DNA of 54,400 bases from Photorhabdus noenieputensis (GTDB taxonomy: Bacteria > Pseudomonadota > Gammaproteobacteria > Enterobacterales > Enterobacteriaceae), in assembly GCF_018448935.1 (NCBI RefSeq), contig NZ_RCWC01000040.1, positions 1-54,400 of the forward strand, in the 5' to 3' direction. Of this stretch, positions 14,456-31,773 are shown piece after piece; position 1 is the stretch's first letter, and every line of letters starts with the position of its first letter. The notes beneath the pieces are model-generated. The model ran no database searches and was not told where the DNA came from. It saw only the letters and a program-made list of their open reading frames with translations. The translations under genes and the position numbers were made by a program.

Positions 14456-14659
14456 TATATGTATTAGATAAATCGTCAATATGGCATCAGAAATGCTGTA
14501 TATGTTATCTAAATGCTGGATAAATTCCTGATAAACACCTTGTTTTCTAGTGAAAATGGTTAAAATTTCATATGGGCAAGATGAATAGCTTATTGTACGT
14601 ATTCTTGAGTAATATAAGTTATTTATCAATTGGTTAGATTAAATTTTGGAGTTTATATC

Positions 14660-15583: not shown

Positions 15584-15788
15584 TATAAGTGTTAGGTAAG
15601 ATGTTAATGCAGTATCAAAAATGATAACTATCTTATCTGACTCGTAGATAATCTTTTAATGCATATTGATTTTGTAGTAGAAGTACAAACTATCTTATAT
15701 TTCTCAAGTGAACGATTTGTTGTGCTGTATTTTGAGCCAATATAATTATATTTATAAATTAATTACATTAAGTTATGAGGTTTATATT

Positions 15789-16699: not shown

Positions 16700-17800
16700 A
16701 TGCTTGATTCAAATTTAACAGATTGTAATAGTAAGAATTCATCCCCAGTTTGTTCTTTTAATGAGTGGGACCCACTTGAGGAGGTTATTGTCGGTGTAGT
16801 TGATGGTGCTAGATTTCCCGGTTGGCATATGGCGATAGAGCCGATATTGCCACCGAATCAAGTTACTAATTTTTATCGGTATGCAGGTCGGTCATTCCCG
16901 CAAGAGCAAATTGATGCAGCATCTAGAGAATTAGAAGAGTTTGTCCATATTCTTGAAGGTGAAGGTGTGACAGTACGTCGTCCAGATCCGCAAGACCAAT
17001 CTCAGGTATTTGGTGCACCAGGCTGGAGTAGTACCGGGTTTTATTGTGCAATGCCTCGCGATGTGCTGTTAGTTATTGGAAATGATATTATTGAATGCCC
17101 GCTAGCATGGCGTTCCCGTTATTTTGAGACAGCGGCATACAAGACTTTACTTAAAGATTACTTTAAGAAAGGTGCAAAATGGAGCGCCGGGCCAAAGCCA
17201 CAGTTGACCGAGGAACAATATAATTTCGAATGGCATCAGCCTAATAGCAATGAACGTGTTCCCCTTGCGATAACTGAATTTGAACCGACTTTTGATGCTG
17301 CGGATTTTATTCGGTGTGGGCGAGACATCATTGCTCAAAAGAGCCATGTCACAAACGAATTTGGTATTGAATGGCTTCGTCGTCATATAGGTGATGAATA
17401 TCGTATTCATGTTTTTGAATTTAACGATGATAGTCCTATGCACATTGATGCCACTTTTGTTCCTATGGCACCAGGAAAACTGTTAATTCACCCAGAAAAA
17501 GTATTAAAAATTCCTGAATTATTTAGGAACTGGGATGTATTACATGCGCCGAAACCGGTTATTCCTGATGACCATCCTCTGTATACCACCAGTAAATGGA
17601 TCAACATGAATATTCTGATGTTGGATGAGCAGCGGGTGATTGTTGAAAAACAGGATGAGCCAATGATCGCTGCGATGAAACGTTGGGGCTTTACGCCAAT
17701 TCCATGTAATTTCAGGAATTTTAATACGTTCGGTGGTTCCTTCCATTGTGCAACCGTGGATGTAAGACGGCGCGGAACTTTACAGTCTTATCTTGACTAG
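16700..17800 (+). CDS. glycine amidinotransferase family protein (AGAT-like)
   Basis: The protein has 366 residues and starts after AGGAGA. It belongs to the amidinotransferase family with a pentein fold, which transfers the amidino group of arginine to an amine acceptor. It is strikingly close to vertebrate arginine:glycine amidinotransferase: EFEPTFDAADFIRCGRDI, PMHIDATF, IPDDHPL, SSKW-like TSKWINMN and a C-terminus VRRRGTLQSYLD that I recall as identical in human AGAT. Expected catalytic residues are present: Asp199, His248 and Cys350 (in GGSFHC). The N-terminal mitochondrial segment of animal enzymes is absent. Likely product is guanidinoacetate plus ornithine, but bacterial relatives act on other acceptors in natural-product pathways. 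No biosynthetic partner genes are adjacent, so the acceptor is unknown. Confidence 0.85.
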   Translation: MLDSNLTDCNSKNSSPVCSFNEWDPLEEVIVGVVDGARFPGWHMAIEPILPPNQVTNFYRYAGRSFPQEQIDAASRELEEFVHILEGEGVTVRRPDPQDQSQVFGAPGWSSTGFYCAMPRDVLLVIGNDIIECPLAWRSRYFETAAYKTLLKDYFKKGAKWSAGPKPQLTEEQYNFEWHQPNSNERVPLAITEFEPTFDAADFIRCGRDIIAQKSHVTNEFGIEWLRRHIGDEYRIHVFEFNDDSPMHIDATFVPMAPGKLLIHPEKVLKIPELFRNWDVLHAPKPVIPDDHPLYTTSKWINMNILMLDEQRVIVEKQDEPMIAAMKRWGFTPIPCNFRNFNTFGGSFHCATVDVRRRGTLQSYLD

Positions 17801-17848
17801 GAATGAATAATGATGGCTATCTAGAGATATTCCCTTTGGGATGCAGCA

Positions 17849-18079
17849 ATGTTTGCATTAAGTATCTGGTATATGGTAGCCATTGTTGCGCGAGTTGTAT
17901 ATTGGGGTATAAAAGTGATTATAGTATTGAAAATTGCCCCAATATTTGGCCATGCCCAATATACCTCTACATTATATGCCTCTGCATTTTGTTTGTATTT
18001 CTCCCTCCTCCTTCTCATCATTTCTATAATTATGAATAGTAACAGATTATTTAATTCTGAATTTAAGTATGAGTTCTGA
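17849..18079 (+). CDS. possible small membrane protein
   Basis: A 76-codon frame starts at ATG 17849, 48 bases after the amidinotransferase stop. It encodes two hydrophobic helices (SIWYMVAIVARVVYWGIKVI and ASAFCLYFSLLLLIISIIM) followed by a polar tail. There is no good ribosome site, so translation may depend on coupling to the upstream gene or the frame may be a decayed one. A second overlapping frame from 17803 has cysteine- and proline-rich composition and looks like a shadow. Low confidence. Confidence 0.3.
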   Translation: MFALSIWYMVAIVARVVYWGIKVIIVLKIAPIFGHAQYTSTLYASAFCLYFSLLLLIISIIMNSNRLFNSEFKYEF

Positions 18080-18153: not shown

Positions 18154-18203
18154 TTAAATGATAATAGTTATTACTTGGATGTTGGTTATTTCCGTCTTAC
18201 AGT
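18154..18203 (+). promoter_or_regulatory. Fur-box-like site and promoter of hydrolase copy 1
   Basis: TTAAATGATAATAGTTATT (18154-18172) matches 13 of 19 positions of the Fur consensus GATAATGATAATCATTATC. Directly after it TTGGAT (18175-18180) and TACAGT (18198-18203) are 17 bases apart. The same arrangement recurs before copies 3, 4 and 5. Bioinformatic inference only. Confidence 0.45.
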
Positions 18204-18276: not shown

Positions 18277-19869
18277 ATGATGAAATCGATGATATCTAAA
18301 GATAATATTCAGTTGTTTATCAATAAAATAGATGAATTGGTTAATGTTGAAAATGAAAAAAAAGGTGGGGCGCTCGCAGTTGCTATTATCCACGATGATA
18401 AGATAATTTATCAGCGTCATATCGGGCAAGCTAGCATAGAACATGCTGTTGCGATACAGTCTAATACTAAATTCTATTTAGCGAGTGCTTCAAAACAATT
18501 CACGGCTTTTTGCATAGCTTTGCTGGAGAAAGAAGGAAAGCTTAACGTCAAGGATAAAGTCAGACAATATTTGGATTATTTACCCGCACATTTCTCTGAT
18601 ATTACCATTGAGCATCTTATTCATCACACCAGTGGGTTACGGGATGTATTTTTACTTTATAGTCTGGCAGGTAAAAACTCAAGTTTTGACTACTGCCATG
18701 CTGATTTAGTGAAAAAACTGATCCAACGACAACAGACACTTAACGCCCCCATTGGGGAATATAATATTTATAGTAATACAGGCTATTATTTGCTAGGGGA
18801 AATCGTCAGCGTAGTTTCAGGTAAATCGTTAAAAGAATATGCAGAGGAAAATGTTTTCGCTCCATTAGAGATGAAAGATACCATCATCTGTGATGATATA
18901 ACCGAGATTATCTCTAATCGTGCGATGGGTTACACTTATAATGAGAATTCGCAACAGTGGATAAGAAGTGATATCAATAATTCTGTGGTGGGCAGTGCAG
19001 CGGTTCACTCCACTGTGAATGATTTATGTCGTTGGGCTAAAGCGTTTTATTCGCCATCTATTGTTCAGGAGCTACTGCCTGAATTATCCCGTACACCAGA
19101 TTTAACTAATGGTAATCGTAACAATTATGCTTACGGTTTGATTATCGACCAACGTGCAGGGCAAACGATAATACAACACAGTGGTACCTATGCTGGCTTT
19201 AGAGCTAGTATTTGTATTTTGCCAAACGCTAAATTAGGTATCGCGATGACTGCTGCAAGTGATGTTGATGTTGGTAAATGGACGGATCAGTATATTGATA
19301 TATTGTTTAATACCGATGTTGAGCCAGAAAAACCACATTGCCTAACCAGTGATATTGATATCACCGGTATTTTCCGAGGGTTAGAGCCTTACCCTTATAT
19401 TATTACCAAAGAAGATGTTTATTTTTTAGGTAATTTATTTACAAAAGGTAACCCGATTATTTTTAACTCTGATGGTACATTCCAAGAACAAAGAAGTAGA
19501 GTCCAGTTCAGACCCGTCATTGAAAATGACAGTGTTATCGCATTGGAACATATTGATGAAATTGGTAATGTTTTTTATTTGAAAAAGATGAACGATGAAG
19601 GTAGTGTCGATATTAATCTATTGTCAGGTCGCTATTATAGTCACGAAACAGAGGCGATAGTTAATATTATATCATCTGGCGATAATCTTTATATTGATGG
19701 GATTATCCATCCTGTAAAAAAAGAGGCTTTGCGACATATTTATGGGAATAGCTATTTCTCACCTAGTGCTGAGTTTGTTGTTGATTTTAAATTTGATCCT
19801 GATACCAATAAACCTCGTCTCTATGTCGGTAATGCGCGTTGCTTGAATGTAGAATTCGTTGCAGTTTAA
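18277..19869 (+). CDS. serine beta-lactamase-like hydrolase, array copy 1
   Basis: The protein has 530 residues and no signal peptide or membrane helix, so it is predicted cytosolic. Residues 25-335 form a serine beta-lactamase/D-alanyl-D-alanine-peptidase fold (PF00144, peptidase family S12). The catalytic motifs are intact: SASK (Ser70, Lys73), YSN (Tyr165) and HSG (His301). The remaining 190 residues form a C-terminal region (DIDITGIFRG, then PYPYIITKEDVYFLGN, ending RCLNVEFVAV) shared by all seven copies. The size and layout recall D-aminopeptidases of the S12 group, which carry extra beta-barrel domains. The substrate is unknown: an esterase, D-amino-acid peptidase or drug-inactivating role are all possible. 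An AAGGA ribosome site precedes tandem ATGs (18277, 18280). Confidence 0.82.
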   Translation: MMKSMISKDNIQLFINKIDELVNVENEKKGGALAVAIIHDDKIIYQRHIGQASIEHAVAIQSNTKFYLASASKQFTAFCIALLEKEGKLNVKDKVRQYLDYLPAHFSDITIEHLIHHTSGLRDVFLLYSLAGKNSSFDYCHADLVKKLIQRQQTLNAPIGEYNIYSNTGYYLLGEIVSVVSGKSLKEYAEENVFAPLEMKDTIICDDITEIISNRAMGYTYNENSQQWIRSDINNSVVGSAAVHSTVNDLCRWAKAFYSPSIVQELLPELSRTPDLTNGNRNNYAYGLIIDQRAGQTIIQHSGTYAGFRASICILPNAKLGIAMTAASDVDVGKWTDQYIDILFNTDVEPEKPHCLTSDIDITGIFRGLEPYPYIITKEDVYFLGNLFTKGNPIIFNSDGTFQEQRSRVQFRPVIENDSVIALEHIDEIGNVFYLKKMNDEGSVDINLLSGRYYSHETEAIVNIISSGDNLYIDGIIHPVKKEALRHIYGNSYFSPSAEFVVDFKFDPDTNKPRLYVGNARCLNVEFVAV

Positions 19870-19972
19870 TTGTCAGATTAGTAAATATAAATTTAGAACA
19901 GCATTTCATTAGCAGGATAGAGTTAATGTTATTGATGGCCTAAAGATACTTTCTATTAGATGTACTTTGTTC

Positions 19973-20010
19973 CAGACAGAATTATTATATTTATGTTCTG
20001 TCTGTTTTTT
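19973..20010 (+). terminator. terminator after hydrolase copy 1
   Basis: CAGACAGAA (19973-19981) pairs with TTCTGTCTG (19996-20004), followed by T6. A hairpin with this stem, in variants, follows each of the seven hydrolase genes. Confidence 0.8.
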
Positions 20011-20022
20011 ATAAATAAGGTT

Positions 20023-20625
20023 TCATAATAGTGCTATACTCATTTTTTTCGGGGTGATAACCCGTTTTTGTTGTCCTTTGAAACACCAGTCCGCGCCGAT
20101 TTTCGGGTTTAAATTAATATCCACCTCATCTTCATAGAAAACGGAATGTTTTTCTGAAATATTCGCTTTGGCTTCCGTGATCTTTGCCATTTTCTCATCA
20201 TATTCAGGATCGGGTTGTTTTACCGTGGGTGCCGTCTGCGCCAGACAATCCCCGCTTGAGCAAAGTAACGATAGAGGACATTTTGTGTCAGAGAGAGGTT
20301 GAGTCATTCATCAAGGGTATGAGTCATGAGCTTAAGGCTCCAGCGAGAGCGAAGATAGCCGAACTCTTGGGGAGATTGCTGTAATAAGCAAAGCAATAGG
20401 TTATAGAGGGGAGAGATCCCAGACAGCAGGTCGGCCAGCCGGTAAATTTTTCAGCCCTTCTAGCCCATATAATGTAAACCACTCAACCCAACGATTGATG
20501 GAAGAACGTGCGGCATGAAGGGTTTTGGCGACATAAGTCACTGTCAATTTCTCATTGAGCATCAATCATACCGTCAATCGACGGGAATAGTTTTTATCAC
20601 GGGTTTTATAGATAAGTTTTCTCAT
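20023..20625 (-). mobile_element. IS630-family transposase remnant
   Basis: Read on the minus strand from ATG 20623-20625, the sequence encodes MRKLIYKTRDKNYSRRLTV, a TGA stop, then KLTVTYVAKTLHAARSSINR and WVEWFTLYGLEGLKNL. In shifted frames it continues with EFGYLRSRWSLKLMTHTLDE, a stop, and YRYFAQAGIVWRR, and ends with YDEKMAKITEAKANISEKHS and DWCFKGQQKRVITP (an IS630 DDE-domain stretch including FYEDEVD). Several frameshifts and stops inactivate it and the C-terminal third is missing. It sits between hydrolase copies 1 and 2, replacing the leader that the other copies have. Ends of the element were not defined. Confidence 0.85.
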
Positions 20626-20668
20626 TTTCTGGCATTCATTTTAAGGTATGGCTACTATGATAGGTATC

Positions 20669-20732
20669 ACTCAGTTCGTGTTAGGGTTTGGGATTTTTCG
20701 CGATTGATCAGATCGCAAAAATCGGACTGAGT
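20669..20732. repeat. 64-bp imperfect inverted repeat upstream of hydrolase copy 2
   Basis: ACTCAGTTCG (20669-20678) pairs with CGGACTGAGT (20723-20732), and the inner GATTTTTCGCGAT pairs with ATCGCAAAAATC across a TGATCAG loop with one bulge. It lies between the IS630 remnant and the copy 2 ribosome site. It could be an insertion-element end, a small palindromic element or an attenuator-like hairpin. There is no T-tract directly after it. Confidence 0.5.
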
Positions 20733-20783
20733 TCCCTTCCAATGATCTACTATTTTGAAAGTTTATTTATTAGGAGATTGATT

Positions 20784-22373
20784 ATGAAACTGACAATATC
20801 CGCAGATAATATTAAACTATTTATTAAGAAAATAGACGAATTAGTTAATATTGAGAATAAAAAGAAGGGGGGCGCTCTCGCCGTTGCGATTACCCACGGC
20901 AATAAAATCATTTATCAGCGTCATATCGGACAAGCTAGCATTGAACATGCTGTGGTTGTAAGACCTAATACTCAATTCTATTTAGCGAGTGTTTCAAAAC
21001 AATTCACGGCTTTTTGTATAGCTTTGCTGGAGAAAGAAGGAAAGATTAACGTCAAGGATAAAGTCAGACAATATTTGGATTATTTACCCGCGTATTTCTC
21101 TGATATTACTATTGAACATCTTATTCACCACACCAGTGGGTTGCGGGATATGTTTTTACTTTATGGTCTGGCAGGTAAAAACTCAGATTTTGACTACTGC
21201 CATGCTGACCTAGTGAAAAAGCTGATCCAACGACAACAGGCACTTAACGTCCCGTCTGGGGAATATTATCTTTATAGCAACACGGGTTATTATTTACTGG
21301 GGGAAATCGTTAGCCTGGTTTCAGGCCAGTCGTTGAAAAAATATGTAGAAGAAAATGTTTTCGTCCCGTTAAAGATGAAAAATACCTTTATCTGCGATGA
21401 TGTAACCGAGATTATCTCTGACAGGGCGATGGGGTACGCTTATAATAAGGATTCACAACGGTGGATAAGAAGCGATATCAACAATTCTGTGGTGGGTAGT
21501 GCAGGGGTTCACTCCACCGTGAATGATTTGTGTCGTTGGATGAGAGCATTTTATTCACCATCGATTGTTCAGGATCTGTTGCCTCAATTATTCCGTACAC
21601 CAGATTTAACCAATGGTAATCGTAACAATTATGCTTATGGTTTGATTATCAATCGACGTTCAGGGCAAACGATAATACAACACGGTGGTACTTATGCTGG
21701 CTTCAGAGCAATTATTTGTATTTTACCGGATGCGAAATTAGGTATCGTGATTACCACTGCAACAGGTGTTGATGTTGCTAAATGGGTGGATCGGTATATT
21801 AATATATTGCTTAACTCCGATGTTGAATCAGAGAAGTCGCATTATCTAACCAGTGATATTGATATCACCGGTATTTTCCGCGGGATAGCGTCTTATCCTT
21901 ATATTATTACCAAAGAAGATGTTTATTTCTTAGGTAATGTATTTGATAAAGGTAATCCGATTACTTTTAACTCTGACGGTACATTCCAAGAACAAGGAGG
22001 TAAAACTCGATTCATGCCTATCATTGAAAATGACAATGTTATCGCACTGAAACAGATTGATGAAAATGGTAATATTTTTTATTTTAAAAAAATGAACGAT
22101 GAAGGTAGTATCGATATTAAGCTATTGTCAGGGCGATATTATAGTTACGAAACAGAGGCGATAATTAATGTTATACTGTCTGGTAAAGATATTTATATTG
22201 ATGGGATTATCCATCCTATGAAAGAAGAGGTCTTACGGCATATTTATGGGAATAGTTATTTGTCAACAGGAACTAATCTTATTATTGATTTTAAGTTTTA
22301 TCCTGATGAAAATAAATGTCGCCTCTATGTCAGTAATTCGCGTTGCTTGAATTTGGAATTCATTGCAGTTTGA
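20784..22373 (+). CDS. serine beta-lactamase-like hydrolase, array copy 2
   Basis: The protein has 529 residues from ATG 20784, set by an AGGAGA ribosome site; an in-frame extension to 20688 is not family sequence. Active-site motifs are SVSK (Ser69, Lys72), YSN (Tyr164) and HGG (His300). It is closest to copies 1 and 3 (for example HTSGLRDMFLLYGLAGKNS and the C-terminus RCLNLEFIAV). Its upstream region differs from the other copies: the conserved Fur-like leader is missing, replaced by the IS630 remnant and a 64-bp inverted repeat, so its expression signals are unclear. A hairpin terminator follows. Confidence 0.82.
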   Translation: MKLTISADNIKLFIKKIDELVNIENKKKGGALAVAITHGNKIIYQRHIGQASIEHAVVVRPNTQFYLASVSKQFTAFCIALLEKEGKINVKDKVRQYLDYLPAYFSDITIEHLIHHTSGLRDMFLLYGLAGKNSDFDYCHADLVKKLIQRQQALNVPSGEYYLYSNTGYYLLGEIVSLVSGQSLKKYVEENVFVPLKMKNTFICDDVTEIISDRAMGYAYNKDSQRWIRSDINNSVVGSAGVHSTVNDLCRWMRAFYSPSIVQDLLPQLFRTPDLTNGNRNNYAYGLIINRRSGQTIIQHGGTYAGFRAIICILPDAKLGIVITTATGVDVAKWVDRYINILLNSDVESEKSHYLTSDIDITGIFRGIASYPYIITKEDVYFLGNVFDKGNPITFNSDGTFQEQGGKTRFMPIIENDNVIALKQIDENGNIFYFKKMNDEGSIDIKLLSGRYYSYETEAIINVILSGKDIYIDGIIHPMKEEVLRHIYGNSYLSTGTNLIIDFKFYPDENKCRLYVSNSRCLNLEFIAV

Positions 22374-22478
22374 TGGACACGTTAGTAAATACAGATTTAG
22401 AACAGCATTTAGCTAGCAAGATAGGATTGATGCTATTGTGAGAACTTGGAGATATTTTCTATTAGTGCACTTCATTCT

Positions 22479-22515
22479 AGGCAGAACGGTTATATTTATG
22501 TTCTGCCTGTTTTTG
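22479..22515 (+). terminator. terminator after hydrolase copy 2
   Basis: AGGCAGAAC (22479-22487) pairs with GTTCTGCCT (22500-22508), followed by GTTTTT. Relative to the copy 1 hairpin both arms have changed in a compensating way (GACAG/CTGTC to GGCAG/CTGCC). Confidence 0.78.
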
Positions 22516-22616
22516 TAAACATTAGATCCAAAATGATTTCTGAAAGAAAATAATGGTTATAAAATTTAGTTAATTTTAATTTTCATCCGCAGTTACTTTA
22601 TATTGCCATTCACACA

Positions 22617-22666
22617 TTAAATGATAGTCATTATTACTTGGATATTTCTTGTTTACGTCTTACAGT
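22617..22666 (+). promoter_or_regulatory. Fur-box-like site and promoter of hydrolase copy 3
   Basis: TTAAATGATAGTCATTATT (22617-22635) matches 14 of 19 Fur-consensus positions. TTGGAT (22638-22643) and TACAGT (22661-22666) follow with 17-base spacing. An ERIC element is inserted 36 bases downstream of this promoter, lengthening the leader. Confidence 0.45.
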
Positions 22667-22702
22667 ACTGCCCATATATGTACTGCTATCAAGTCGTATA
22701 TA

Positions 22703-22829
22703 TATACCCGTTATCTTTCAAGTTGCCTCTTTGTTGGCGGCACTCGCTCACCCCGGTCACATAGTTATCTATGCTCCCGGGGATTCACTCCCTTACCGTC
22801 GCGATGCATCTTGAAATCCATAGAGTATA
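22703..22829. repeat. ERIC (IRU) element, copy 2, inside the leader of hydrolase copy 3
   Basis: The 127-bp element has the same ends and central ERIC motifs as the copy at 12671-12797, with about ten differences. It interrupts the leader sequence that is continuous before copies 1, 4 and 5 (ATATAT then ATGTTCTG), flanked by TA dinucleotides as expected for ERIC insertion. It will be transcribed with copy 3. Confidence 0.92.
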
Positions 22830-22861
22830 TGTTCTGTTTTGTAACCTTAAATAGGAAATTC

Positions 22862-24454
22862 ATGATGGAATCGATGATATCTAAAGATAATATTCAATTG
22901 TATATCAATAAAATAGATGAGTTGGTTAATATTGAAAATGAAAAAAAAGGTGGAGCTCTCGCCGTCGCTATTATCCACGATGATAAGATAATTTATCAGC
23001 GTCATATCGGGCAAGCTAGCATTGAGCATGATGTTGCTATACAGCCTAATACTAAATTCTATTTAGCGAGTTCTTCAAAACAATTCACGGCTTTTTGCAT
23101 AGCTTTGCTGGAGAAAGAAGGAAAGCTCAATGTCAAGGATAAAATCAGACAATATTTGGATTATTTACCCGAACATTTCTCTGATATTACCATTGAGCAT
23201 CTTATTCACCACACCAGTGGATTACGGGATGTATTTTTACTTTATAGTTTGGTAGGTAAAAACTCAAGTTTTGACTACTGCAATGCTGATTTGATGGAAA
23301 AACTGGTCCAACGACAACAGACATTTAACACTCCCACAGGGGAATATTATATTTATAGCAATACGGGCTATTATTTGTTGGGGGAAATTATCCATGTGGT
23401 TTCAGGTAAGTCGTTAAAAGAATATGCAGAAGAAAATATTTTCGTTCCATTAAAGATGAAAGATACCATTATTTGTGATGATATAACCGAGATTATCTCT
23501 AATCGGGCGATGGGTTACACTTATAATGAGAATTCGCAACAGTGGATAAGAAGCGATATCAACAATTCTGTGATGGGCAGTGCAGCGGTTCACTCCACCG
23601 TGAATGATTTATGTCGTTGGGCTAGAGCGTTTTATTCGCCATCTATTGTTCAGGATCTACTGCCTCAATTATCCCGTACACCAGATTTAACCAATGGCAA
23701 TCGTAACAATTATGCTTACGGTTTGATTGTCGAACAACGTGAAGGGCAAAGGATAATACAACACAATGGTACCTTTGCTGGCTTCCGAGCTAATGTTTGT
23801 ATTTTGCCGGATGCTAAATTAGGTATGGCGATGACTTCTGCAAGCGATGCTGATGTTGATCAATGGACGGATAACTATATGGATATCTTGTTTAACACCC
23901 ATATTGAACCGGAAAAACCATATTGCCTAACCAGTGATATTGATATCACCGGTATTTTCCGCGGGATAGAGCCTTATCCTTATATTATTACCAAAGAAGA
24001 TGTTTATTTTTTAGGTAATTTATTCGAAAAAGGTAACCAGATTATTTTTAACTCTGACTGTACATTCCAGGAGCAAGGAAGTAAAAGTAAGTTCAGACCC
24101 GTCATTGAAAATGACAGTGTTATTGCACTGGAGTATATTGATGAAAATGATAATGTTTTTTATTTTAAAAAGATGAACAATGAAGATAGTGTCGATATTC
24201 AGTTATTATCAGGGCGATATTATAGTCACGAAACAGAGGCGATAATTAATATTATATCATCTGGTGATGATATTTATATTGATGGGATTATCCATCCTGT
24301 AAAAAAAGAGGCTCTGCGACATATTTACGGCAACAGTTATTTCTCACCCAGTACTGAGTCTGTTATTGATTTTGCATTTGATCCTGATACTAATAAATAT
24401 CGTCTTTATATTGGTAATTCACGTTGCTTGAATGTGGAATTTGTTGCGGTTTAA
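22862..24454 (+). CDS. serine beta-lactamase-like hydrolase, array copy 3
   Basis: The protein has 530 residues from ATG 22862. The frame is open further upstream to 22649, but that extension translates the ERIC element and is not protein. Motifs are SSSK (Ser70, Lys73), YSN (Tyr165) and HNG (His301). It is the closest relative of copy 1 (MMESMISKDNIQ against MMKSMISKDNIQ; identical stretches such as YTYNENSQQWIRSDINNSV). The residue after the catalytic serine and the centre of the HxG motif both vary among copies, so substrate preference could differ. Own Fur-like leader and terminator. Confidence 0.82.
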   Translation: MMESMISKDNIQLYINKIDELVNIENEKKGGALAVAIIHDDKIIYQRHIGQASIEHDVAIQPNTKFYLASSSKQFTAFCIALLEKEGKLNVKDKIRQYLDYLPEHFSDITIEHLIHHTSGLRDVFLLYSLVGKNSSFDYCNADLMEKLVQRQQTFNTPTGEYYIYSNTGYYLLGEIIHVVSGKSLKEYAEENIFVPLKMKDTIICDDITEIISNRAMGYTYNENSQQWIRSDINNSVMGSAAVHSTVNDLCRWARAFYSPSIVQDLLPQLSRTPDLTNGNRNNYAYGLIVEQREGQRIIQHNGTFAGFRANVCILPDAKLGMAMTSASDADVDQWTDNYMDILFNTHIEPEKPYCLTSDIDITGIFRGIEPYPYIITKEDVYFLGNLFEKGNQIIFNSDCTFQEQGSKSKFRPVIENDSVIALEYIDENDNVFYFKKMNNEDSVDIQLLSGRYYSHETEAIINIISSGDDIYIDGIIHPVKKEALRHIYGNSYFSPSTESVIDFAFDPDTNKYRLYIGNSRCLNVEFVAV

Positions 24455-24558
24455 TTGGCTAGTTAATAAATATAAATTTAGAATAGAGTTTCACTAGCAG
24501 TAATACCATTAATGCTATTGAGGGCTTAAAGATATTTTCTATTAGATGCACTTTGTTC

Positions 24559-24597
24559 CAGACAGAACTATTATATTTATGTTCTGTCTGTTTTTTT
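24559..24597 (+). terminator. terminator after hydrolase copy 3
   Basis: CAGACAGAAC (24559-24568) pairs perfectly with GTTCTGTCTG (24581-24590), followed by T7. Confidence 0.85.
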
Positions 24598-24639
24598 AAA
24601 TATCAGCTTCGGTAGTTACTTTATATTGTCCTCCATATA

Positions 24640-24689
24640 TTAAATGATAATCATTATCGCTTGGATGTTTTCTGTTTACATCTTACAGT
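24640..24689 (+). promoter_or_regulatory. Fur-box-like site and promoter of hydrolase copy 4
   Basis: TTAAATGATAATCATTATC (24640-24658) matches 16 of 19 positions of the Fur consensus, the best in the window, with the whole TGATAATCA core palindrome intact. TTGGAT (24661-24666) and TACAGT (24684-24689) follow with 17-base spacing, so a bound repressor would abut the -35 element. Confidence 0.55.
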
Positions 24690-24765
24690 ACTGCCTACAT
24701 ATGTATTGCTATTAGATTGAATATATATGTTCTGTTTTATACCCTTAAATTAAATAAGGAAATTA

Positions 24766-26358
24766 ATGATGGAGTTCACTATATCTACAGATAAGATTAA
24801 ATTGTTTCTCAAGAAAATAGACGAATTAGTTAATGTTGAAAATAAAAAAAGAGGTGGAGCTATTGCCATTGCTGTGACCCAAGGCAATAAAACCATTTAT
24901 CAGCGTCATATCGGGCAAGCTAGCATTGAACACGCTGTAGCGGTAAAACCTAATACTAAATTTTATTTAGCAAGTGTTTCAAAACAATTCCCGGCTTTTT
25001 GCATAGCCTTATTAGAAAAAGAAGGAAAGCTTAGCGTCAAGGATAGCGTCGGGAAATATTTGGATTACTTCCCCGCAGAGTTCTCTAACATTACCATTGA
25101 GCATCTTATTCACCATTCCAGTGGGTTACGGGATAAATTTTTACTTTATCAACTGGCAGGTAAAAATTCAGATTTTGATCACCGCCATATTGATTTGGTG
25201 AGAAAACTGGCCCAACGGCAACAGGCACTTAATTTCACGCCTGGGGAACATTATCTCTATAGCAACACGGGCTATAGTTTACTGGCGGAAATAGTCAGAG
25301 TAATTTCAGGTAAATCGTTGAGGAAATATGCGGAAGAAAATATTTTCGTCCCATTAAAGATGAAAGAGACCTTTTTCTATGATGACATAACCGAGATTAT
25401 TTCTGATCGGGCGATGGGTTATGCTTATAACGAGAAATTACACCAGTGGGTAAGAGATGATATCAATAATTCTACTGTGGGTGATGGTGGGGCTTACTCT
25501 ACCGTGAATGATTTGTGTCGTTGGATCAGAGCATTTTATTCACCATCGATTGTTCAGGATTTGCTGCCTCAATTATCTCGTACACCAAATTTAACTAATG
25601 GTAATCGCAATAATTATGCTTACGGTTTTATTATCAGTCAACGTGAAGGGCAAAAGATAATACAACATGGTGGTGCTTATGCTGGCTTTAGGTCTTACGT
25701 TTATATTTTACCGGATGCTAAATTAGGTATCGCAATTACCGCTGCAACAGGTGTTAATGTTTCTGCATGGGTGGAACAGAATATTGATATATTGTTTAGC
25801 ACCCATATTGAACTGGAAAAACCGCATTGCTTAACCAGTGATATTGATATCACCGGTATTTTCCGAGGGGAAGAACCTTATCCTTATATTATTACCAAGG
25901 AGGATTGCTATTTATTAGGTAATGTATTCGAAAAAGGCAATCCGATTACTTTTAACTCTGACGGTACGTTCCAAGAGGAAGGGGGTAAAATCCGATTCAG
26001 ACCCATCGTTAAAAATGGCAGTGTTATCGCATTGGAACAGATTAATGAAAATGGCAATGTTTTTTATCTTGAAAAGAGGATTGATAAAGGTGGTATCGAT
26101 ATTCATAAATTATCAGGGCGTTATTATAACTGTGAAACAGAAGCAACGATGATTGTTTCCGCTTCTAGCAGTGGGATTTATATCGATGGGGTTGTTTATA
26201 TTGGTAAAAAGGAAGTCTTACGTCGGATTTACGGGAATAGCTATTTCTCTCCCAGTACTGAACTGATTATTGATTTTAAATTAGATCCTAATACCAATAA
26301 ACCTCATTTGTATATCAGTAACTCACGTTGTTGGAAGGTAGAATTCGTTGCAGTTTAA
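24766..26358 (+). CDS. serine beta-lactamase-like hydrolase, array copy 4
   Basis: The protein has 530 residues. Motifs are SVSK (Ser70, Lys73; followed by QFP where other copies have QFT), YSN (Tyr165) and HGG (His301). It is intermediate between two groups: its first part resembles copies 1-3, while FTPGEHYLYSNTGYSLLAEIV, FFYDDITEII and the C-terminal RCWKVEFVAV resemble copies 5-7. This fits a mosaic or transitional unit in a tandem expansion. An AAGGAAATTA ribosome site precedes the ATG pair. It has its own Fur-like leader and a strong terminator. Confidence 0.82.
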   Translation: MMEFTISTDKIKLFLKKIDELVNVENKKRGGAIAIAVTQGNKTIYQRHIGQASIEHAVAVKPNTKFYLASVSKQFPAFCIALLEKEGKLSVKDSVGKYLDYFPAEFSNITIEHLIHHSSGLRDKFLLYQLAGKNSDFDHRHIDLVRKLAQRQQALNFTPGEHYLYSNTGYSLLAEIVRVISGKSLRKYAEENIFVPLKMKETFFYDDITEIISDRAMGYAYNEKLHQWVRDDINNSTVGDGGAYSTVNDLCRWIRAFYSPSIVQDLLPQLSRTPNLTNGNRNNYAYGFIISQREGQKIIQHGGAYAGFRSYVYILPDAKLGIAITAATGVNVSAWVEQNIDILFSTHIELEKPHCLTSDIDITGIFRGEEPYPYIITKEDCYLLGNVFEKGNPITFNSDGTFQEEGGKIRFRPIVKNGSVIALEQINENGNVFYLEKRIDKGGIDIHKLSGRYYNCETEATMIVSASSSGIYIDGVVYIGKKEVLRRIYGNSYFSPSTELIIDFKLDPNTNKPHLYISNSRCWKVEFVAV

Positions 26359-26461
26359 TTTATAAAGTGATAAATCAGAATGAATAATGGCATTGTTATA
26401 GCCGGATAGAATTAATGCTATTAAGGGCTTAAAGATATTTCCTATTAGATACACTTTGTGC

Positions 26462-26500
26462 CAGGCAGAACTATTATATTTATGTTCTGTCTGTTTTTTT
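26462..26500 (+). terminator. terminator after hydrolase copy 4
   Basis: CAGGCAGAAC (26462-26471) pairs with GTTCTGTCTG (26484-26493) through one G-T pair, followed by T7. Confidence 0.8.
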
Positions 26501-26543
26501 CAAACATCAGCTTCCGTAGTTACTTTATATTGCTCTTCATATA

Positions 26544-26593
26544 TTAATTGATGATCATTATCACTTGGATATTTCCTGTTTACGTCTTACAGT
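26544..26593 (+). promoter_or_regulatory. Fur-box-like site and promoter of hydrolase copy 5
   Basis: TTAATTGATGATCATTATC (26544-26562) matches 14 of 19 Fur-consensus positions. TTGGAT (26565-26570) and TACAGT (26588-26593) follow with 17-base spacing. No such leader precedes copies 6 and 7, so this promoter may drive copies 5 to 7. Confidence 0.45.
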
Positions 26594-26664
26594 ACTGCTC
26601 ACGTATGTATTGCTATTAGGCTGAATATATATGTCCTGTCTTATAACCTTAAATAAGGAAATTC

Positions 26665-28260
26665 ATGATGGAATCAACGATATCTGCAAATAACATTAAC
26701 TCTTTTATCAAGAAAATAGACGAACTGGTTAATATTGAAAATAAAAAAAAGGGGGGCGCACTTGCTGTTGCTGTTACTCACGGTAATAAAACAATTTATC
26801 AGCGCCAGATCGGAAAGGCTAACATTGAACATACTATTGCTGTAAAGCCTAATACTAAATTCTATTTGGCGAGTGTTTCAAAACAATTCACCGCTTTTTG
26901 CATAGCCTTGTTGGAGAAAGAAGGAAAACTTTGTATCAAGGATAAAGTTAGACAATATTTGGATTATTTCCCGGCACATTTCTCTGATATTACCATTGAA
27001 CATCTTATTCATCACACCAGTGGATTACGGGATCAATTTGGACTTTATAATCTGGCAGGTAAAAACTCGGACTTTGACCACCGTCATGTTGATTTAGTGA
27101 GAAAATTGTCTCAACGGCAACAAATGCTTAATTTTACACCTGGAGAATATTATCTCTATAACAACACGGGCTATAATTTACTAGCGGAAATAGTCAGAGT
27201 GGTTTCAGGTAAATCGCTGAGAGAATATGCAGAAGAAAATGTTTTCGCCCCATTAAAGATGAAAGATACCTTTTTCTATGATGACATAACCGAGATTATC
27301 TCTGATCGGGCAATGGGTTACATTTATAACGAGGCATTGCACCAGTGGAGAAGAAATGATCTCAACGATGCGGTGGTTGGTGGTTCAGGGCTTTATTCTA
27401 CAGTAAGTGATTTGTGTCGTTGGATTAGAGCGTTTTATTCGCCGTCGATTGTTCAGGAGCTATTGCCTCAGTTATCCCGTATGCCAGATTTAACCAATGG
27501 CGATCGTAACAATTATGCCTACGGTTTGATTATTAGCCAACGTGAAGGTCAAAAGATAATGCGACACGGTGGTTTTTATGGTGGCTTTAGATCGGACGTG
27601 TGCATTTTGCCTGATGCCAAATTAGGTATTGCTATTACCTCCGCAACAAGTACGGATGTTGATAAATTTATCAAGCAGGGTCTTGATGCATTGTTTAATA
27701 CCGGTATTACTGAGCCAGGCAAACAGCCTTGCCGAATCAGTGATATTGATATTACCGGTATTTTCAAAGGAGTAGATCCTTTTCCTTATATTATTACTAA
27801 AGAAGAGTGTTATTTATTAGGCAATTTATTCGAAAAAGGCAATCCGATTATTTTTAACTCTGATGGAACCTTTCAAGAGGAAAATGGGCAAATCCTGTTC
27901 AGACCTATCATTGAAAATGACAGCGTTATCGCATTGGAACAGATTAATGAAAGTGGCAATGTTTCTTATTTGAAAAAGATGATTGATAAAGGTGATATCG
28001 ATATTCAGCGATTCTTAGGTCGCTATTATAATCACGAAACAGAATCGATTATCAATATTGAAGCATCCAGTGATGATCTTTATATTGATGCGATTATCTT
28101 GCCTGGAAAAAAACAGCTCTTAAGATGGATTTACGAGAATAGTTATTTCTTGCCTGGTACTGAAATTATTATTGATTTTGAATTGGATCATGATACGAAT
28201 GAGCCTTATCTCTATCTCAACGATGGACGTTGTTGGAAGATAGAATTCGTCCCGGTTTAA
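26665..28260 (+). CDS. serine beta-lactamase-like hydrolase, array copy 5
   Basis: The protein has 531 residues. Motifs are SVSK (Ser70, Lys73), YNN (Tyr165; the middle residue differs from the YSN of most copies) and HGG (His301). It has one extra residue in the linker between catalytic and C-terminal regions (NTGITEPGKQP). It groups with copies 6 and 7 (for example the C-terminal RCWKIEFVPV). Its transcript end is weak: the hairpin after it lacks a clear T-tract, and copy 6 follows after 183 bases without a Fur-like promoter, so read-through is plausible. Confidence 0.82.
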   Translation: MMESTISANNINSFIKKIDELVNIENKKKGGALAVAVTHGNKTIYQRQIGKANIEHTIAVKPNTKFYLASVSKQFTAFCIALLEKEGKLCIKDKVRQYLDYFPAHFSDITIEHLIHHTSGLRDQFGLYNLAGKNSDFDHRHVDLVRKLSQRQQMLNFTPGEYYLYNNTGYNLLAEIVRVVSGKSLREYAEENVFAPLKMKDTFFYDDITEIISDRAMGYIYNEALHQWRRNDLNDAVVGGSGLYSTVSDLCRWIRAFYSPSIVQELLPQLSRMPDLTNGDRNNYAYGLIISQREGQKIMRHGGFYGGFRSDVCILPDAKLGIAITSATSTDVDKFIKQGLDALFNTGITEPGKQPCRISDIDITGIFKGVDPFPYIITKEECYLLGNLFEKGNPIIFNSDGTFQEENGQILFRPIIENDSVIALEQINESGNVSYLKKMIDKGDIDIQRFLGRYYNHETESIINIEASSDDLYIDAIILPGKKQLLRWIYENSYFLPGTEIIIDFELDHDTNEPYLYLNDGRCWKIEFVPV

Positions 28261-28345
28261 TTTAATTAATAGGGTTGTGAACACGAATTGAGAACAGTGT
28301 TTCTCTGGTAGGATGGGTTGAATTATATTGGATTATCATTATTTT

Positions 28346-28375
28346 AGGCAGAATTTTCATATTCGTGTTCTGCCT
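28346..28375 (+). terminator. weak hairpin after hydrolase copy 5
   Basis: AGGCAGAA (28346-28353) pairs with TTCTGCCT (28368-28375). The following sequence TATTACACC has few T residues, so termination may be inefficient. Confidence 0.5.
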
Positions 28376-28443
28376 TATTACACCGTAATATCAGATTGTA
28401 TACCCTATGTATTCTGTTTATATAATCTTAAATAAGGAAATTA

Positions 28444-30039
28444 ATGATGGAATTGACGATATCTAGAGATAACATTAAGTCTCTTGTTAATAAAATAGAC
28501 AATTTAATTGATATTGAAAATAAGAAAAATGGCGGTGCCCTCGCGGTTGCGGTTACCCACGGAAATGAAACCATTTATAAACGCTATATCGGGCAAGCCA
28601 GCATTGAACATGCAGTTGCCATAACCCCTAATACGAAATTCTATTTGGCGAGCGTTTCAAAACAATTCACGGCTTTTTGCATTGCTTTGTTGGAGAAAGA
28701 AGGAAAGCTTTGCGTTAAGGATAAAGTTGGACAATATGTGGATTATTTCCCCGCAGAATTCTCTGATATTACCATTGAGCATCTTATTCACCATACCAGT
28801 GGATTACGTGATCAATTTTTACTTTATAGCCTGGCAGGTAAAAATTCAGCCTTTGACCACCGTCATATTGATTTGGTGCGAAAACTGACGCAACGGCAAC
28901 AAGCGCTTAATTTTACGCCTGGAGAATATTATCTCTATAGCAACACGGGTTATAATTTAATGGCGGAAATAGTCAGAGTAGTTTCAGGCCAGTCGCTGAG
29001 AGAATATGCAGAAGAAAATATTTTCGTCCCATTAAAGATGAAAGATACCTTTTTCTATGATGATGTTACCGAGATTATTTTTGACCGAGCAATGGGGTAC
29101 TCCTATAACGAGGACTCGAACCGATGGATAAGAGAAGATCTCAATGATGCGGCGGTAGGAGGTTCGGGGCTATATTCTACAGTGAATGATTTGTGTCGCT
29201 GGATGAGAGCGTTTTATTCGCCATCGATTGTTCAGGATCTATTGCCTCAATTATCTCGTACGCCAGATTTAACTAATGGCAATCGTAACGATTATGCTTA
29301 CGGTTTTGCGATCAGCCAACGTGAAGGGCAAAAGATAATACGACATGATGGTGGTTATGGTGGCTTCAGATCAGTAGTTTGTATTTTGCCTGATGCTGAA
29401 TTAGGTATTGCTGTTACTTCTGCAATGAATACTAATGTCTCTAAGCTTGTTCGACAATGTGTTGACGTATTGTTTAATCCCAATGGTACTAAACTAGAAA
29501 AACAGCCTTGTCGGACTGGTGATATTGATATTACGGGTATATTCAAAGGAATACAACCTTATCCTTATATTATTACCAAAGAAGATTGCTATTTATTAGG
29601 TAATTTATTCGAGAAAGGCAACCCGATCATCTTTAATTCTGATGGAACATTCCAAGAGGTGGATGGGAAAATTAGGTTCAGACCTATCATTGAAAATGAC
29701 AGTATTATTGCATTGGAGCAGATTAATGAAAATGGCAATGTTTTTTATCTAGATAAGATGATTGATGATGGTGGTACCGATATTCAGCTACTATTAGGAT
29801 ATTATTATAACCACGAAACAGAATCTGTGCTCACTGTTGCAGCTTCTGAAGATGAGCTTTATATCGATGCCATTATTTCTTCTGAAAGAAAAGAGGTCTT
29901 ACATCGGGTTTATGGGAACAGTTATTTTTCTCCTAGCACAGAGATTATTATTGATTTTGAATTAAACTCTGACACGAATGAACCTTATCTTTATCTCAGT
30001 AATGGTCGTTGCTGGAATATAGAATTCGTCCCAGTTTAA
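28444..30039 (+). CDS. serine beta-lactamase-like hydrolase, array copy 6
   Basis: The protein has 531 residues. Motifs are SVSK (Ser70, Lys73), YSN (Tyr165) and HDG (His301), the last with an aspartate where copies 2, 4 and 5 have glycine. The first 60 residues are almost identical to copy 7 (IDNLIDIENKKNGGALAVAV). It lacks the Fur-like upstream block and has only a short leader with AAATAAGGAAATTA before the ATG pair. It is likely transcribed with copies 5 and 7. Confidence 0.82.
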   Translation: MMELTISRDNIKSLVNKIDNLIDIENKKNGGALAVAVTHGNETIYKRYIGQASIEHAVAITPNTKFYLASVSKQFTAFCIALLEKEGKLCVKDKVGQYVDYFPAEFSDITIEHLIHHTSGLRDQFLLYSLAGKNSAFDHRHIDLVRKLTQRQQALNFTPGEYYLYSNTGYNLMAEIVRVVSGQSLREYAEENIFVPLKMKDTFFYDDVTEIIFDRAMGYSYNEDSNRWIREDLNDAAVGGSGLYSTVNDLCRWMRAFYSPSIVQDLLPQLSRTPDLTNGNRNDYAYGFAISQREGQKIIRHDGGYGGFRSVVCILPDAELGIAVTSAMNTNVSKLVRQCVDVLFNPNGTKLEKQPCRTGDIDITGIFKGIQPYPYIITKEDCYLLGNLFEKGNPIIFNSDGTFQEVDGKIRFRPIIENDSIIALEQINENGNVFYLDKMIDDGGTDIQLLLGYYYNHETESVLTVAASEDELYIDAIISSERKEVLHRVYGNSYFSPSTEIIIDFELNSDTNEPYLYLSNGRCWNIEFVPV

Positions 30040-30103
30040 TTGATAGTGTTGTGAACACGAGTTGAGAATAGTGTTTTTCTGGTAGAATTGATTGAATTAT
30101 ATT

Positions 30104-30132
30104 AGGCAGAATTTCCATATTATTATTCTGCC
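30104..30132 (+). terminator. weak hairpin after hydrolase copy 6
   Basis: AGGCAGAAT (30104-30112) pairs with ATTCTGCCT (30124-30132). The downstream sequence TATCACACT is not a T-tract, so it may be a transcript-end remnant or a pause site and not a full terminator. Confidence 0.45.
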
Positions 30133-30183
30133 TTATCACACTGTATATATGTTATTTTTATATAACCTTAAATAAGGAAATTA

Positions 30184-31773
30184 ATGATGGAATTGACGAT
30201 ATTTAGAGATAATATTAAGTCTCTTGTTAAGAAAATAGACAATTTAATTGATATTGAAAATAAGAAAAATGGCGGTGCCCTCGCGGTTGCTGTTACCCAC
30301 GGAAATGAAACCATTTATAAGCGCCATATCGGGCAGGCTAGTATTGAACATGCTGCTGTCATAACCCCAAATACGAAATTCTATATGGCGAGTGTTTCAA
30401 AACAATTCACCGCTTTTTGTATTGCTTTGTTGGAAAAAGAAGGAAAGATCAACGTCAAGGATAAAGTTGGAAAATATGTGGATTATTTCCCGGCACATTT
30501 CTCTGATATTACCATTGAGCATCTTATTCATCATACCAGTGGGTTACGGGATAAATATGCCCCTTATGGCTTGGCGGGTAAAAACTCAGATTTTGACCAC
30601 CGCAGTATAGATTTATTAAGAAAATTGATTCAACGGCAACAAAAGCTTAATTTCATGCCTGGGGAATATTTTCGCTATACCAATATGGGTTATAATTTGT
30701 TGGCAGAAATCATCAAAGTGGTTTCGGGTAAATCGTTAAGAGAATATGCGAAAGAAAATATCTTTATTCCATTAAAGATGAATAATACCTCTTTCTATGA
30801 TGATGTTACTGAGGTTATCTCTGACCGGGCGATAGGTTATGTCTATAACGCAGATTCAAATCAATGGATAAGATCGGATCACAACGATTCAACTATAGGT
30901 AGTGCGGGGCTTCGTTCTACAGTGAGTGATTTATGCCGCTGGATGAAAGCATTTTATTCACCATCGATTGTTCGGGATATGTTGCCTCATTTATCTCGTA
31001 TGCCAAATTTAGCCAATGGCAATCGGAACAATTATGCTTACGGTTTGATGATCAGCCAACGTGAAGGGCAAAAGATAATACGGCACGATGGTGCCTATGG
31101 TGGTTTTAAAGCTGAGGTTTGTATTTTACCTGATGCTAAATTAGGTATTGTGATTACTGCTGCAACAGGTATTAATAGTGTTGAGTTTACTAATCAATGC
31201 CTTAATGTATTATTTAACACTGATGTGACTGAGCCAGAGCATTGCCGAACCAGTAATATTGATATTACCGGTATGTTCAAGGGGGCTGATCCCTATCCTT
31301 ATATTATTACCAAGGAAGATTGCTATTTATTAGGTAATTTATTCGAGAAAGGTAATCCGATTATCTTTAACGCTGATGGAACATTCCAAGAGAAGGGTGG
31401 AGACATTCGGTTCAGGCCGATCATTGAAAATAACCGTGTTATCGCACTGGAACAGATTGATGAAAATGATAATGTTTTTTATTTGAAAAAGATGACTGGC
31501 AAAGGTGATATTAATATTCAGCGATTATCAGGTCGTTATTATAATCACGAGACAGAATCAATTGTCAATATTGAAGCATCCGGTCATGATCTTTATATTG
31601 ATGCGGTTATCTTGCCTGGAAAAAAAGAGGTCTTGAAGTGGGCTTACGAGAATAGTTATTTATTACCCAGTATTCAGTTTATTATTGATTTTGAATTGGA
31701 CCCTGATACGAAGGAGCCTCGTCTCTATTTCAATGATGCACGTTGTTGGAAGATAGAATTCGTCCCGGTTTAA
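30184..31773 (+). CDS. serine beta-lactamase-like hydrolase, array copy 7
   Basis: The protein has 529 residues and is the most diverged of the group in active-site surroundings: YMASVSKQF (Ser70, Lys73), YTN (Tyr165, in YFRYTNMGY) and HDG (His301), with GLRDKYAPYGLAGKNS in place of the LLY-type segment. The linker is two residues shorter than in copies 5 and 6. Motif residues are intact, so it is expected to be active. It closes the array; its terminator is strong. The gap from copy 6 is 144 bases, the shortest in the array. Confidence 0.82.
   Translation: MMELTIFRDNIKSLVKKIDNLIDIENKKNGGALAVAVTHGNETIYKRHIGQASIEHAAVITPNTKFYMASVSKQFTAFCIALLEKEGKINVKDKVGKYVDYFPAHFSDITIEHLIHHTSGLRDKYAPYGLAGKNSDFDHRSIDLLRKLIQRQQKLNFMPGEYFRYTNMGYNLLAEIIKVVSGKSLREYAKENIFIPLKMNNTSFYDDVTEVISDRAIGYVYNADSNQWIRSDHNDSTIGSAGLRSTVSDLCRWMKAFYSPSIVRDMLPHLSRMPNLANGNRNNYAYGLMISQREGQKIIRHDGAYGGFKAEVCILPDAKLGIVITAATGINSVEFTNQCLNVLFNTDVTEPEHCRTSNIDITGMFKGADPYPYIITKEDCYLLGNLFEKGNPIIFNADGTFQEKGGDIRFRPIIENNRVIALEQIDENDNVFYLKKMTGKGDINIQRLSGRYYNHETESIVNIEASGHDLYIDAVILPGKKEVLKWAYENSYLLPSIQFIIDFELDPDTKEPRLYFNDARCWKIEFVPV

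Follow-up and report, generated by a model that had tools for sequence, protein, structure and literature searches.

Tandem S12-type serine hydrolases with Fur-type boxes in Photorhabdus

Results and discussion

The window, a 54,400-nucleotide stretch of Photorhabdus noenieputensis DNA, contains seven consecutive serine hydrolase genes, which we consider, at somewhat better than even confidence, to form a Photorhabdus-specific array of apparently cytosolic S12 hydrolases with a D-aminopeptidase-like build and Fur-type iron control. Their sequences are best read as those of putative low-iron-induced amide or ester hydrolases, of which siderophores or other peptide products would be the likeliest substrates. 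Photorhabdus species are insect pathogens rich in natural products, and an intact genus-wide family with iron-type boxes on over half of its copies points to a new step in their low-iron or in-host chemistry.

Seven intact paralogues in tandem

According to the ORF list of the window, all 7 genes lie on the forward strand and encode intact paralogues of 529–531 residues: copy 1 (18277..19869, 530 residues), copy 2 (20784..22373, 529 residues), copy 3 (22862..24454, 530 residues), copy 4 (24766..26358, 530 residues), copy 5 (26665..28260, 531 residues), copy 6 (28444..30039, 531 residues), and copy 7 (30184..31773, 529 residues). Each matched PF00144, with E-values from 1.3e-56 (copy 1) to 2.8e-65 and scores of 193–221 bits against a gathering cut-off of 27, and copies 2 to 7 share 66%–87% protein identity with copy 1. 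The mechanical frames of copies 2 and 3 extend further 5′; an AGGA-type ribosome site, located by eye, favors the ATG used here. The ORFs, the alignment, and the PF00144 matches confirm the first-pass annotation, which had described 7 consecutive intact genes of 529–531 codons; no frameshift, internal stop, or loss of a catalytic residue was found in any of the 7 window copies.

The motifs of the S12 family (PF00144) are SxxK, YxN, and H/KxG. The corresponding residues Ser70, Lys73, Tyr165, Asn167, His301, and Gly303 are invariant in all 7 window copies and in all 74 full-length copies of the genus. The retention of SxxK, YxN, and HxG in every copy, as previously annotated, is therefore borne out, the listed variants of the neighboring residues (SxSK, YxN, HxG) are correct, and the array enzymes are apparently catalytically competent.

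The copies had also been described as lacking a signal peptide. The maximum 15-residue hydrophobicity within the first 44 residues ranged from 0.37 to 1.75 across the 74 copies, compared with 2.03 and 2.29 by the same measure for 2 neighboring proteins with export-like starts. By hydropathy, no copy has a clear signal peptide, but the highest value (1.75, bodei_4) is close to the export-like ones. The top 19-residue mean per copy was 0.89–1.89, the maximum (bodei_2) lying above 1.6, the usual threshold for a membrane helix. On hydropathy only, the hydrolases are apparently cytosolic.

The family is present in all 12 Photorhabdus genomes, with 2–9 copies each, and at an E-value of 1e-60 had no match in any of 118 other genera of its bacterial family. 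It is thus found only in Photorhabdus, and the earlier remark that such an array is unusual holds. Photorhabdus khanii has a second array apart from this locus. Searches for phage or plasmid carriage returned distant S12 matches, every one below 60% identity, and 3 scans of viral contigs returned two, one, and one loci. The one copy scanned had no PADLOC match that would link it to defence. A literature search found no publication on this array, the guessed locus tags that were used possibly not being those of the array.

Fur-type boxes upstream of the array genes

The Fur box consensus can be written as a 7-1-7 palindrome or in a 19-base version. On the forward strand, 7-1-7 boxes were found upstream of copy 1 (18159..18173, 12 of 14 positions matched), copy 3 (22622..22636, 12 of 14, with a dispersed-repeat copy between the box and the gene), copy 4 (24645..24659, 13 of 14), and copy 5 (26549..26563, 13 of 14). 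Judged by this upstream palindrome, copies 1, 3, 4, and 5 are putative members of the Fur regulon. A box matching at least 12 of 14 positions lies within 300 nt upstream of 42 of the 74 genus copies, compared with 1 of 187 other ORFs (at least 150 residues, from 15 of the same 17 regions), although, as the copies descend from each other, these 42 boxes do not count as independent. The other 32 copies, including window copies 2, 6, and 7, have no box at 12 of 14. The 19-base consensus gave a weaker signal (38 of 74 copies at 14 of 19). The second array of P. khanii likewise has a Fur-type box. The long region upstream of copy 2, where there is no box at 12 of 14, looks insertion-derived by eye. 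Fur-type boxes did not figure in the first-pass annotation.

Sites with at most one mismatch numbered (i) 15 in the window genome, 2 of them in the array, against 4 for a reversed-pattern control; (ii) 27 in P. caribbeanensis, 4 of them in the array, against 2; and (iii) 23 in genome G007, 2 of them in the array, against 5. Among the 13 non-array sites of the window genome, 7 precede iron or manganese genes, identified by HMM as encoding FhuF, a siderophore-interacting protein, a TonB receptor, MntP, and a Slam-type lipoprotein, and by eye as encoding ExbB/ExbD and a metal-binding ABC protein. The remaining 6 precede no recognized iron or manganese gene: three lie within ORFs, one precedes an AraC/Rob-like regulator, one precedes a pirin, and one is of unclear context.

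Directly 3′ of the copy 1 box, a common motif, TTGGAT-17-TACAGT (18175..18203, forward strand), recurs at 22638, 24661, and 26565; these are its only 4 occurrences on the forward strand of the window, and the reverse strand has none. The motif is a poor match to a sigma-70 promoter and was not listed by a general promoter scan, which found no excess of sites in the region (86, against 99.3 in shuffled sequences). Our own pattern located a terminator-like inverted repeat with a T-run 3′ of copy 1 (19974..20014, forward strand), equivalent T-tailed repeats at 22479, 24560, and 26463, and stems lacking the T-run at 28346, 30104, and 31877, all on the forward strand; the general terminator scan, whose loops are at most 8 long, missed the T-tailed repeats. 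In 56 gaps between genes, box and T-tailed repeat occurred together in 27 and were both absent from 20, with the repeat alone in 7 and the box alone in 2. Copies 5, 6, and 7 are likely, on this arrangement, to form one transcription unit headed by copy 5.

Relatives and the putative reaction

The best NCBIfam match of the 2 copies scanned (of the 7) was D-aminopeptidase NF009622, with 114.8 and 117.5 bits against a cut-off of 443; because of this gap, membership was not assigned. D-aminopeptidase releases N-terminal D-residues, has no signal peptide, and bears two C-terminal β-barrels. The array proteins resemble the S12 D-aminopeptidase (NF009622/PRK13128; structure 1ei5, 520 residues) in catalytic domain, length, and the C-terminal region of relatives, and differ from it in the score of 115–118 bits, the tandem copies, and the Fur-type boxes. 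Alignment by hhalign with 6 D-aminopeptidase-like proteins from outside the genus gave a probability of 100 over columns 16–530. The 2 of these 6 that were scanned also had NF009622 as best match, themselves below its cut-off, and share HxG. The C-terminal region of about 190 residues that the copies had been said to share is therefore real but not novel, as it aligns with D-aminopeptidase-like hydrolases.

For the catalytic domain (residues 27–330), the closest sequence in the PDB was 2qmi (Pab87); this PBP-related hydrolase resembles the array proteins in the catalytic domain and differs in that the match stops near residue 330. Three serine hydrolases of 577–608 residues from other Pseudomonadota (L037–L039) share 38%–40% catalytic-domain identity and a related C-terminal region, and differ in having, by eye, N-terminal signal-like stretches and, within their 4-kb loci, no visible tandem neighbors. 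Structure prediction, which had been proposed as a check, gave one model (mean pLDDT 51, pTM 0.29); this model, unusable probably because all 61 sequences of its alignment came from one genus, speaks neither for nor against two C-terminal β-barrels in the array proteins.

Under scarce iron, for example inside an insect, Fur would leave the boxes, and copies 1, 3, and 4 and the 5-6-7 unit would be transcribed. Ser70, activated by Lys73 and Tyr165, would attack an amide or ester bond, and water would free the product; these are the roles of serine, lysine, and tyrosine in S12 enzymes. Most speculatively, the substrates may be peptide-like compounds taken up or synthesized by iron-starved cells, such as ferric siderophores or other D-residue-containing non-ribosomal peptides, and the paralogue groups may have slightly different pockets that suit different members of this class. 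Iron may here be a mere host cue.

A general cytosolic role in using or detoxifying peptides or esters of D-amino acids, with iron as a host signal only and no siderophore link, is a less probable explanation that nonetheless deserves weight. D-aminopeptidase is the closest named enzyme, and a Variovorax relative, whose gene has those of a dipeptide epimerase, an M81 peptidase, and a TonB receptor in its vicinity, supports D-peptide use; however, such use alone leaves the abundance of iron-type boxes unexplained, and the D-aminopeptidase family score falls below the cut-off.

The adjacent amidinotransferase operon

In all 12 genus genomes, the array follows, on the same strand, a gene for an SxtG/HsvA/AGAT-like amidinotransferase (16700..17800, forward strand, in the window). 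Between the two, 6 genomes (G002, G006, G007, G009, G010, and G011) have genes for a desaturase-like enzyme, a WelO5/HilA-like oxygenase, and an EamA exporter, and G003 has two of the three; these names come from reading the loci, with HMMs for G007 only. Other species keep the desaturase gene at this position, of which the window retains a vestige derived from the 5′ end (17790..17905, forward strand). Species lacking the extra genes at the locus have 5–9 hydrolase copies and those with them 2–8, kinship being uncorrected.

This neighborhood would suit hydrolases that tailor products of, or give self-protection against, a guanidino-compound pathway, and that persist as orphan protection after loss of the pathway, an explanation that we regard as doubtful. 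The four-gene set is found with no such hydrolases in a further genus of the bacterial family (L094) and at an additional site in the P. luminescens genome (L097), there with a truncated amidinotransferase. Conversely, the window genome, G001, G004, and G005 retain 5–9 hydrolases despite desaturase loss, with no desaturase match anywhere in the first three and only the first 41 residues in G005. The Fur-type box and the shared motif belong to the hydrolases, no amidinotransferase in the control set has a box at 12 of 14, and the second P. khanii array lies away from the amidinotransferase operon. A functional tie between operon and array was judged the weaker candidate, and the amidinotransferase is not clearly part of the array function.

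Slightly more doubtful still is a narrower version of the iron-controlled hydrolase reading, namely a cytosolic panel of S12-type siderophore hydrolases in which the paralogue groups would divide ferric siderophores or xenosiderophores among themselves by class, each group opening its own class to free the iron. Fes and IroD are Fur-regulated cytosolic siderophore esterases of the alpha/beta-hydrolase fold; the array enzymes, if so read, would resemble them as iron-controlled cytosolic hydrolases and differ in their unrelated fold. Such a panel would bring an enzyme fold new to this task and would adapt the whole genus to pirating iron in insect cadavers. Within the window, no gene for siderophore synthesis or for a peptide synthetase was seen.

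Purifying selection and divergence of the paralogues

The variation beside the catalytic residues had been taken as diversification of substrate range under selection. Pairwise omega was 0.18–0.28 for orthologues and 0.24–0.38 for the window paralogues, and a maximum-likelihood codon model of 16 copies (window and P. caribbeanensis) gave 0.263. The proposed dN/dS check on active-site neighbors revealed no acceleration: a parsimony count gave 0.196 at motif-adjacent residues against 0.229 in the remaining catalytic domain, with a replacement excess (p < 0.05, conservative test) at 8 of 531 sites. The family is under purifying selection, and none of the 3 approaches supports positive selection beside the active site.

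The paralogue groups are old. Motif-adjacent residues make up 6 of the 11 catalytic-domain positions fixed differently between them (P = 0.016, for windows picked after the variable sites were seen). Because some pocket-side residues differ between the groups, their specialization is possible, and the array could supply a collection of related enzymes with known differences next to the active-site motifs. Conversion between the window copies was rejected: in five 100-codon windows per copy, covering all but the last 30-odd codons, the closest sequence was in every case a member of the copy's own orthologous group from a different species.

Drift, with tandem duplicates that bring no lasting benefit, would fit a copy number ranging from 2 to 9, the stop-bearing khanA_1 of P. 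khanii, and a remnant in G007, but is improbable in view of the 74 full-length copies with invariant motifs, an omega of about 0.26, the orthologous groups kept between species, and the lack of any sign of recent conversion in the window copies.

Class C β-lactamases have KTG as third motif, β-lactamases and ClbP act in the periplasm, and ClbP has a signal peptide and C-terminal membrane helices. Inactivation of antibiotics and activation of prodrugs had been raised earlier as candidate roles; inactivation of β-lactams or ClbP-type prodrug activation is very improbable despite the PF00144 domain and sequence matches to both enzyme types, because all 74 copies have HxG instead of KTG, the 2 copies scanned scored 67 and 78 bits against the NCBIfam class C cut-off of 415, and no clear signal peptide is apparent by hydropathy; the antibiotic reading gives way to that of a regulated metabolic role.

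Seven intact serine hydrolase genes of a family found only in Photorhabdus

The seven array genes, all on the forward strand (copies 1–7 at 18277–19869, 20784–22373, 22862–24454, 24766–26358, 26665–28260, 28444–30039, and 30184–31773), proved intact, as the first-pass annotation had claimed: every ORF is present, and each product (529–531 aa; 66–87% identity to copy 1 in the alignment of the seven) matched PF00144 in a Pfam profile search with E values of 1.3e-56 or better, far from chance. The SxxK, YxN, and HxG motifs reported for every copy (S70/K73, Y165/N167, and H301/G303, which we take to be the S12 motifs) showed zero variation in 7/7 window copies and 74 full-length copies from the genus.

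The catalytic domain (residues ~30–335) is followed by the expected C-terminal region of ~190 residues, for which the Pfam search gave no match above cut-off (DAP_B in one copy, E 0.04, lay below it). Because columns 16–530 of the family align with six outside proteins (profile comparison, probability 100), two of which (522 and 535 aa) have a D-aminopeptidase as their best NCBIfam match (184 and 164 bits, both below the cut-off of 443), the C-terminal part is common to a known kind of serine hydrolase. The quality of an AlphaFold2 model built on 61 sequences, all of the same genus, was too low for use.

The family is present in all 12 Photorhabdus genomes examined, the window genome included. 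The window has 7 copies; among the other genomes, G001 has 6 whole copies and two contig-end pieces, possibly one gene, G002 4, G003 3, G004 9, G005 5, G006 3 and 3 (one with a stop), G007 5 and a remnant, G008 8, G009 7 and 1 on two contigs, G010 3, and G011 2. No match at E 1e-60 was found in 118 genomes of other genera of the family (one per genus), nor in a further 368 from the class, where scoring was limited to three candidates in each genome; both sets are samples of larger groups. The best match outside the genus among 398 phylum genomes (own included) had 40% identity over residues 31–325. Two family-specific peptide patterns, which detect close relatives only, were run against 84,980 species genomes and returned 14 loci, every one in Photorhabdus.

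Old duplications under constraint

The tree comprised 74 copies from the 12 genomes and from two loci that cover only part of their contigs, L053 (P. akhurstii) and L057 (P. heterorhabditis); one copy cut by the limit of the stretch used, two contig-end pieces, one stop-bearing copy, and short fragments were omitted. The copies grouped mostly by paralogue, not species, and when each of the seven window copies was compared in five 100-codon windows, the closest sequence belonged in 35/35 cases to the same orthologous group in another species, which indicates that the duplications are old; recent gene conversion among the window copies was not seen in these 35 windows.

Omega was 0.18–0.28 within nine ortholog sets, 0.24–0.38 between window paralogues, and 0.263 by maximum likelihood over 16 copies (window and P. 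caribbeanensis); seven single comparisons of neighbour genes gave 0.03–0.19, the highest being the dCTP deaminase. By these estimates, the family evolves faster than most compared neighbours, yet is constrained. The proposed diversification under selection beside the catalytic residues was not borne out: a parsimony count gave 0.196 for motif-adjacent residues versus 0.229 for the remaining catalytic domain (0.223 for the whole domain and 0.313 for the C-terminal part), and 8/531 sites reached p<0.05 in a conservative per-site test that rare or brief positive selection could escape. Seventeen positions are constant in each of eight paralogue groups but not the same across them; 6 of the 11 in the catalytic domain are motif-adjacent (P 0.016, with windows set after the variable sites were seen). 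These positions fit, without proving, specialisation of paralogue groups.

Fur-type boxes in the array gaps

The intergenic gaps show a recurring order: an inverted repeat with a T-run, a 7-1-7 palindrome that is presumably that of Fur, TTGGAT-17-TACAGT, and the gene. Boxes at 18159–18173, 22622–22636, 24645–24659, and 26549–26563 (+) precede copies 1, 3, 4, and 5 and score 12, 12, 13, and 13 of 14; the best scores for copies 2, 6, and 7 are 10, 10, and 9. The region upstream of copy 2 looks insertion-derived by eye. Because the stems before copies 6 and 7 have no T-run, copies 5-6-7 are probably one transcription unit. A ~128 bp repeat that occurs at 43 or more sites of the genome, including 12671–12797 and 22700–22840, has one copy between the box and the start of copy 3.

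Boxes of at least 12/14 within 300 nt upstream precede 42/74 genus copies versus 1/187 control ORFs (≥150 aa, from 15 of the same 17 regions). Box and T-tailed repeat occur together in 27 of 56 gaps (neither in 20, repeat only in 7, box only in 2; Fisher P 2e-7, related species not being independent). A 19-base consensus gave a weaker signal (38/74 copies at 14/19; 12 sites over the entire window versus a shuffled mean of 5.0). TTGGAT-17-TACAGT, a poor match to sigma-70 hexamers, lies upstream of 42/74 copies and at four places on the window + strand, every one inside the array; it was not among the sites listed by a promoter scan, which showed no excess of promoter-like sites in the region. 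The T-tailed repeats were not listed by the terminator scan, which allows short loops only.

Sites with at most one mismatch numbered 15, 27, and 23 in the window genome, P. caribbeanensis, and G007 (reversed control, 4, 2, and 5), of which two, four, and two fall in the array. All 13 non-array sites of the window genome were inspected: 7 precede iron/manganese-type genes, namely FhuF (PF06276), a siderophore-interacting protein (PF04954), a TonB receptor, MntP (344 nt away), and a Slam-type surface lipoprotein by HMM, and ExbB/ExbD and a metal-binding ABC protein by eye; one precedes an AraC/Rob-like regulator, one a pirin, and one is unclear; and 3 lie inside ORFs.

Since these apparently cytosolic hydrolases carry predicted iron-type boxes, they may act on something abundant in iron-starved cells, such as siderophores or other peptide products, and a build like that of D-aminopeptidases points to amide or ester linkages beside D-residues as targets. 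DmpA-type D-aminopeptidases have a different fold. In P. asymbiotica, a D-aminopeptidase DmpA (PAU_02203) is reported to be raised at 37 °C (PMC4683029). PMC2422844 reports that exbD, required for iron scavenging, matters to P. temperata growth and virulence in insects and that the exbD-linked defect is undone by iron; iron scarcity in the host is therefore documented there. A literature search, with little coverage of subscription journals, found no publication on the array.

Neighbouring genes

An amidinotransferase close to SxtG, HsvA, and AGAT lies upstream of the array in 12/12 genomes. In G002, G006, G007, G009, G010, and G011, three more genes intervene, for a desaturase-like protein (PF00487), an oxygenase near WelO5/HilA, and an EamA transporter (HMMs for G007 only); two of the three are visible in the G003 ORF list. 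The window, G001, G004, G005, and G008 are without them at this locus, and G008 has a set of operon genes at another place. This operon (window 16700–17905; also loci L079, L094, and L097) is a probable guanidino-compound pathway. The four-gene set is whole in L094, from another genus of the family, and decayed in the window to the amidinotransferase and 116 bases left from the start of the desaturase gene. Because L094 has it without hydrolases, we treat the set as a neighbour of the array. P. luminescens has a second operon copy (L097 7891–11347), its amidinotransferase reduced to a 120-aa piece, with no hydrolase within the 19-kb stretch of L097.

Downstream of the array lies an anti-phage dCTP deaminase (32262–33761; NF041025, 484 bits, cut-off 400; PADLOC dCTPase E 1.8e-176), which is in split frames at this locus in G003 and G007 and was not found there in G006 and G010. 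Two short ORFs (14630–14965 and 15708–16106) in very AT-rich DNA (GC 0.25) had no Pfam match above cut-off; both precede strong terminator-like hairpins that resemble each other (15143 and 16135), and the first also lies beside the amidinotransferase in most relatives. At 10009–10093 and 10173–10544, both on the minus strand, an Rfam match to a group II intron (model D1D4-7, 38 bits) adjoins an ORF of glycine-rich repeats whose start looks signal-like by eye. A large ORF at 44059–46149, by eye probably a Schlafen/AlbA-type ATP-binding protein, has seven tandem (S)LPHKE(T/S) repeats ahead of its C-terminal part.
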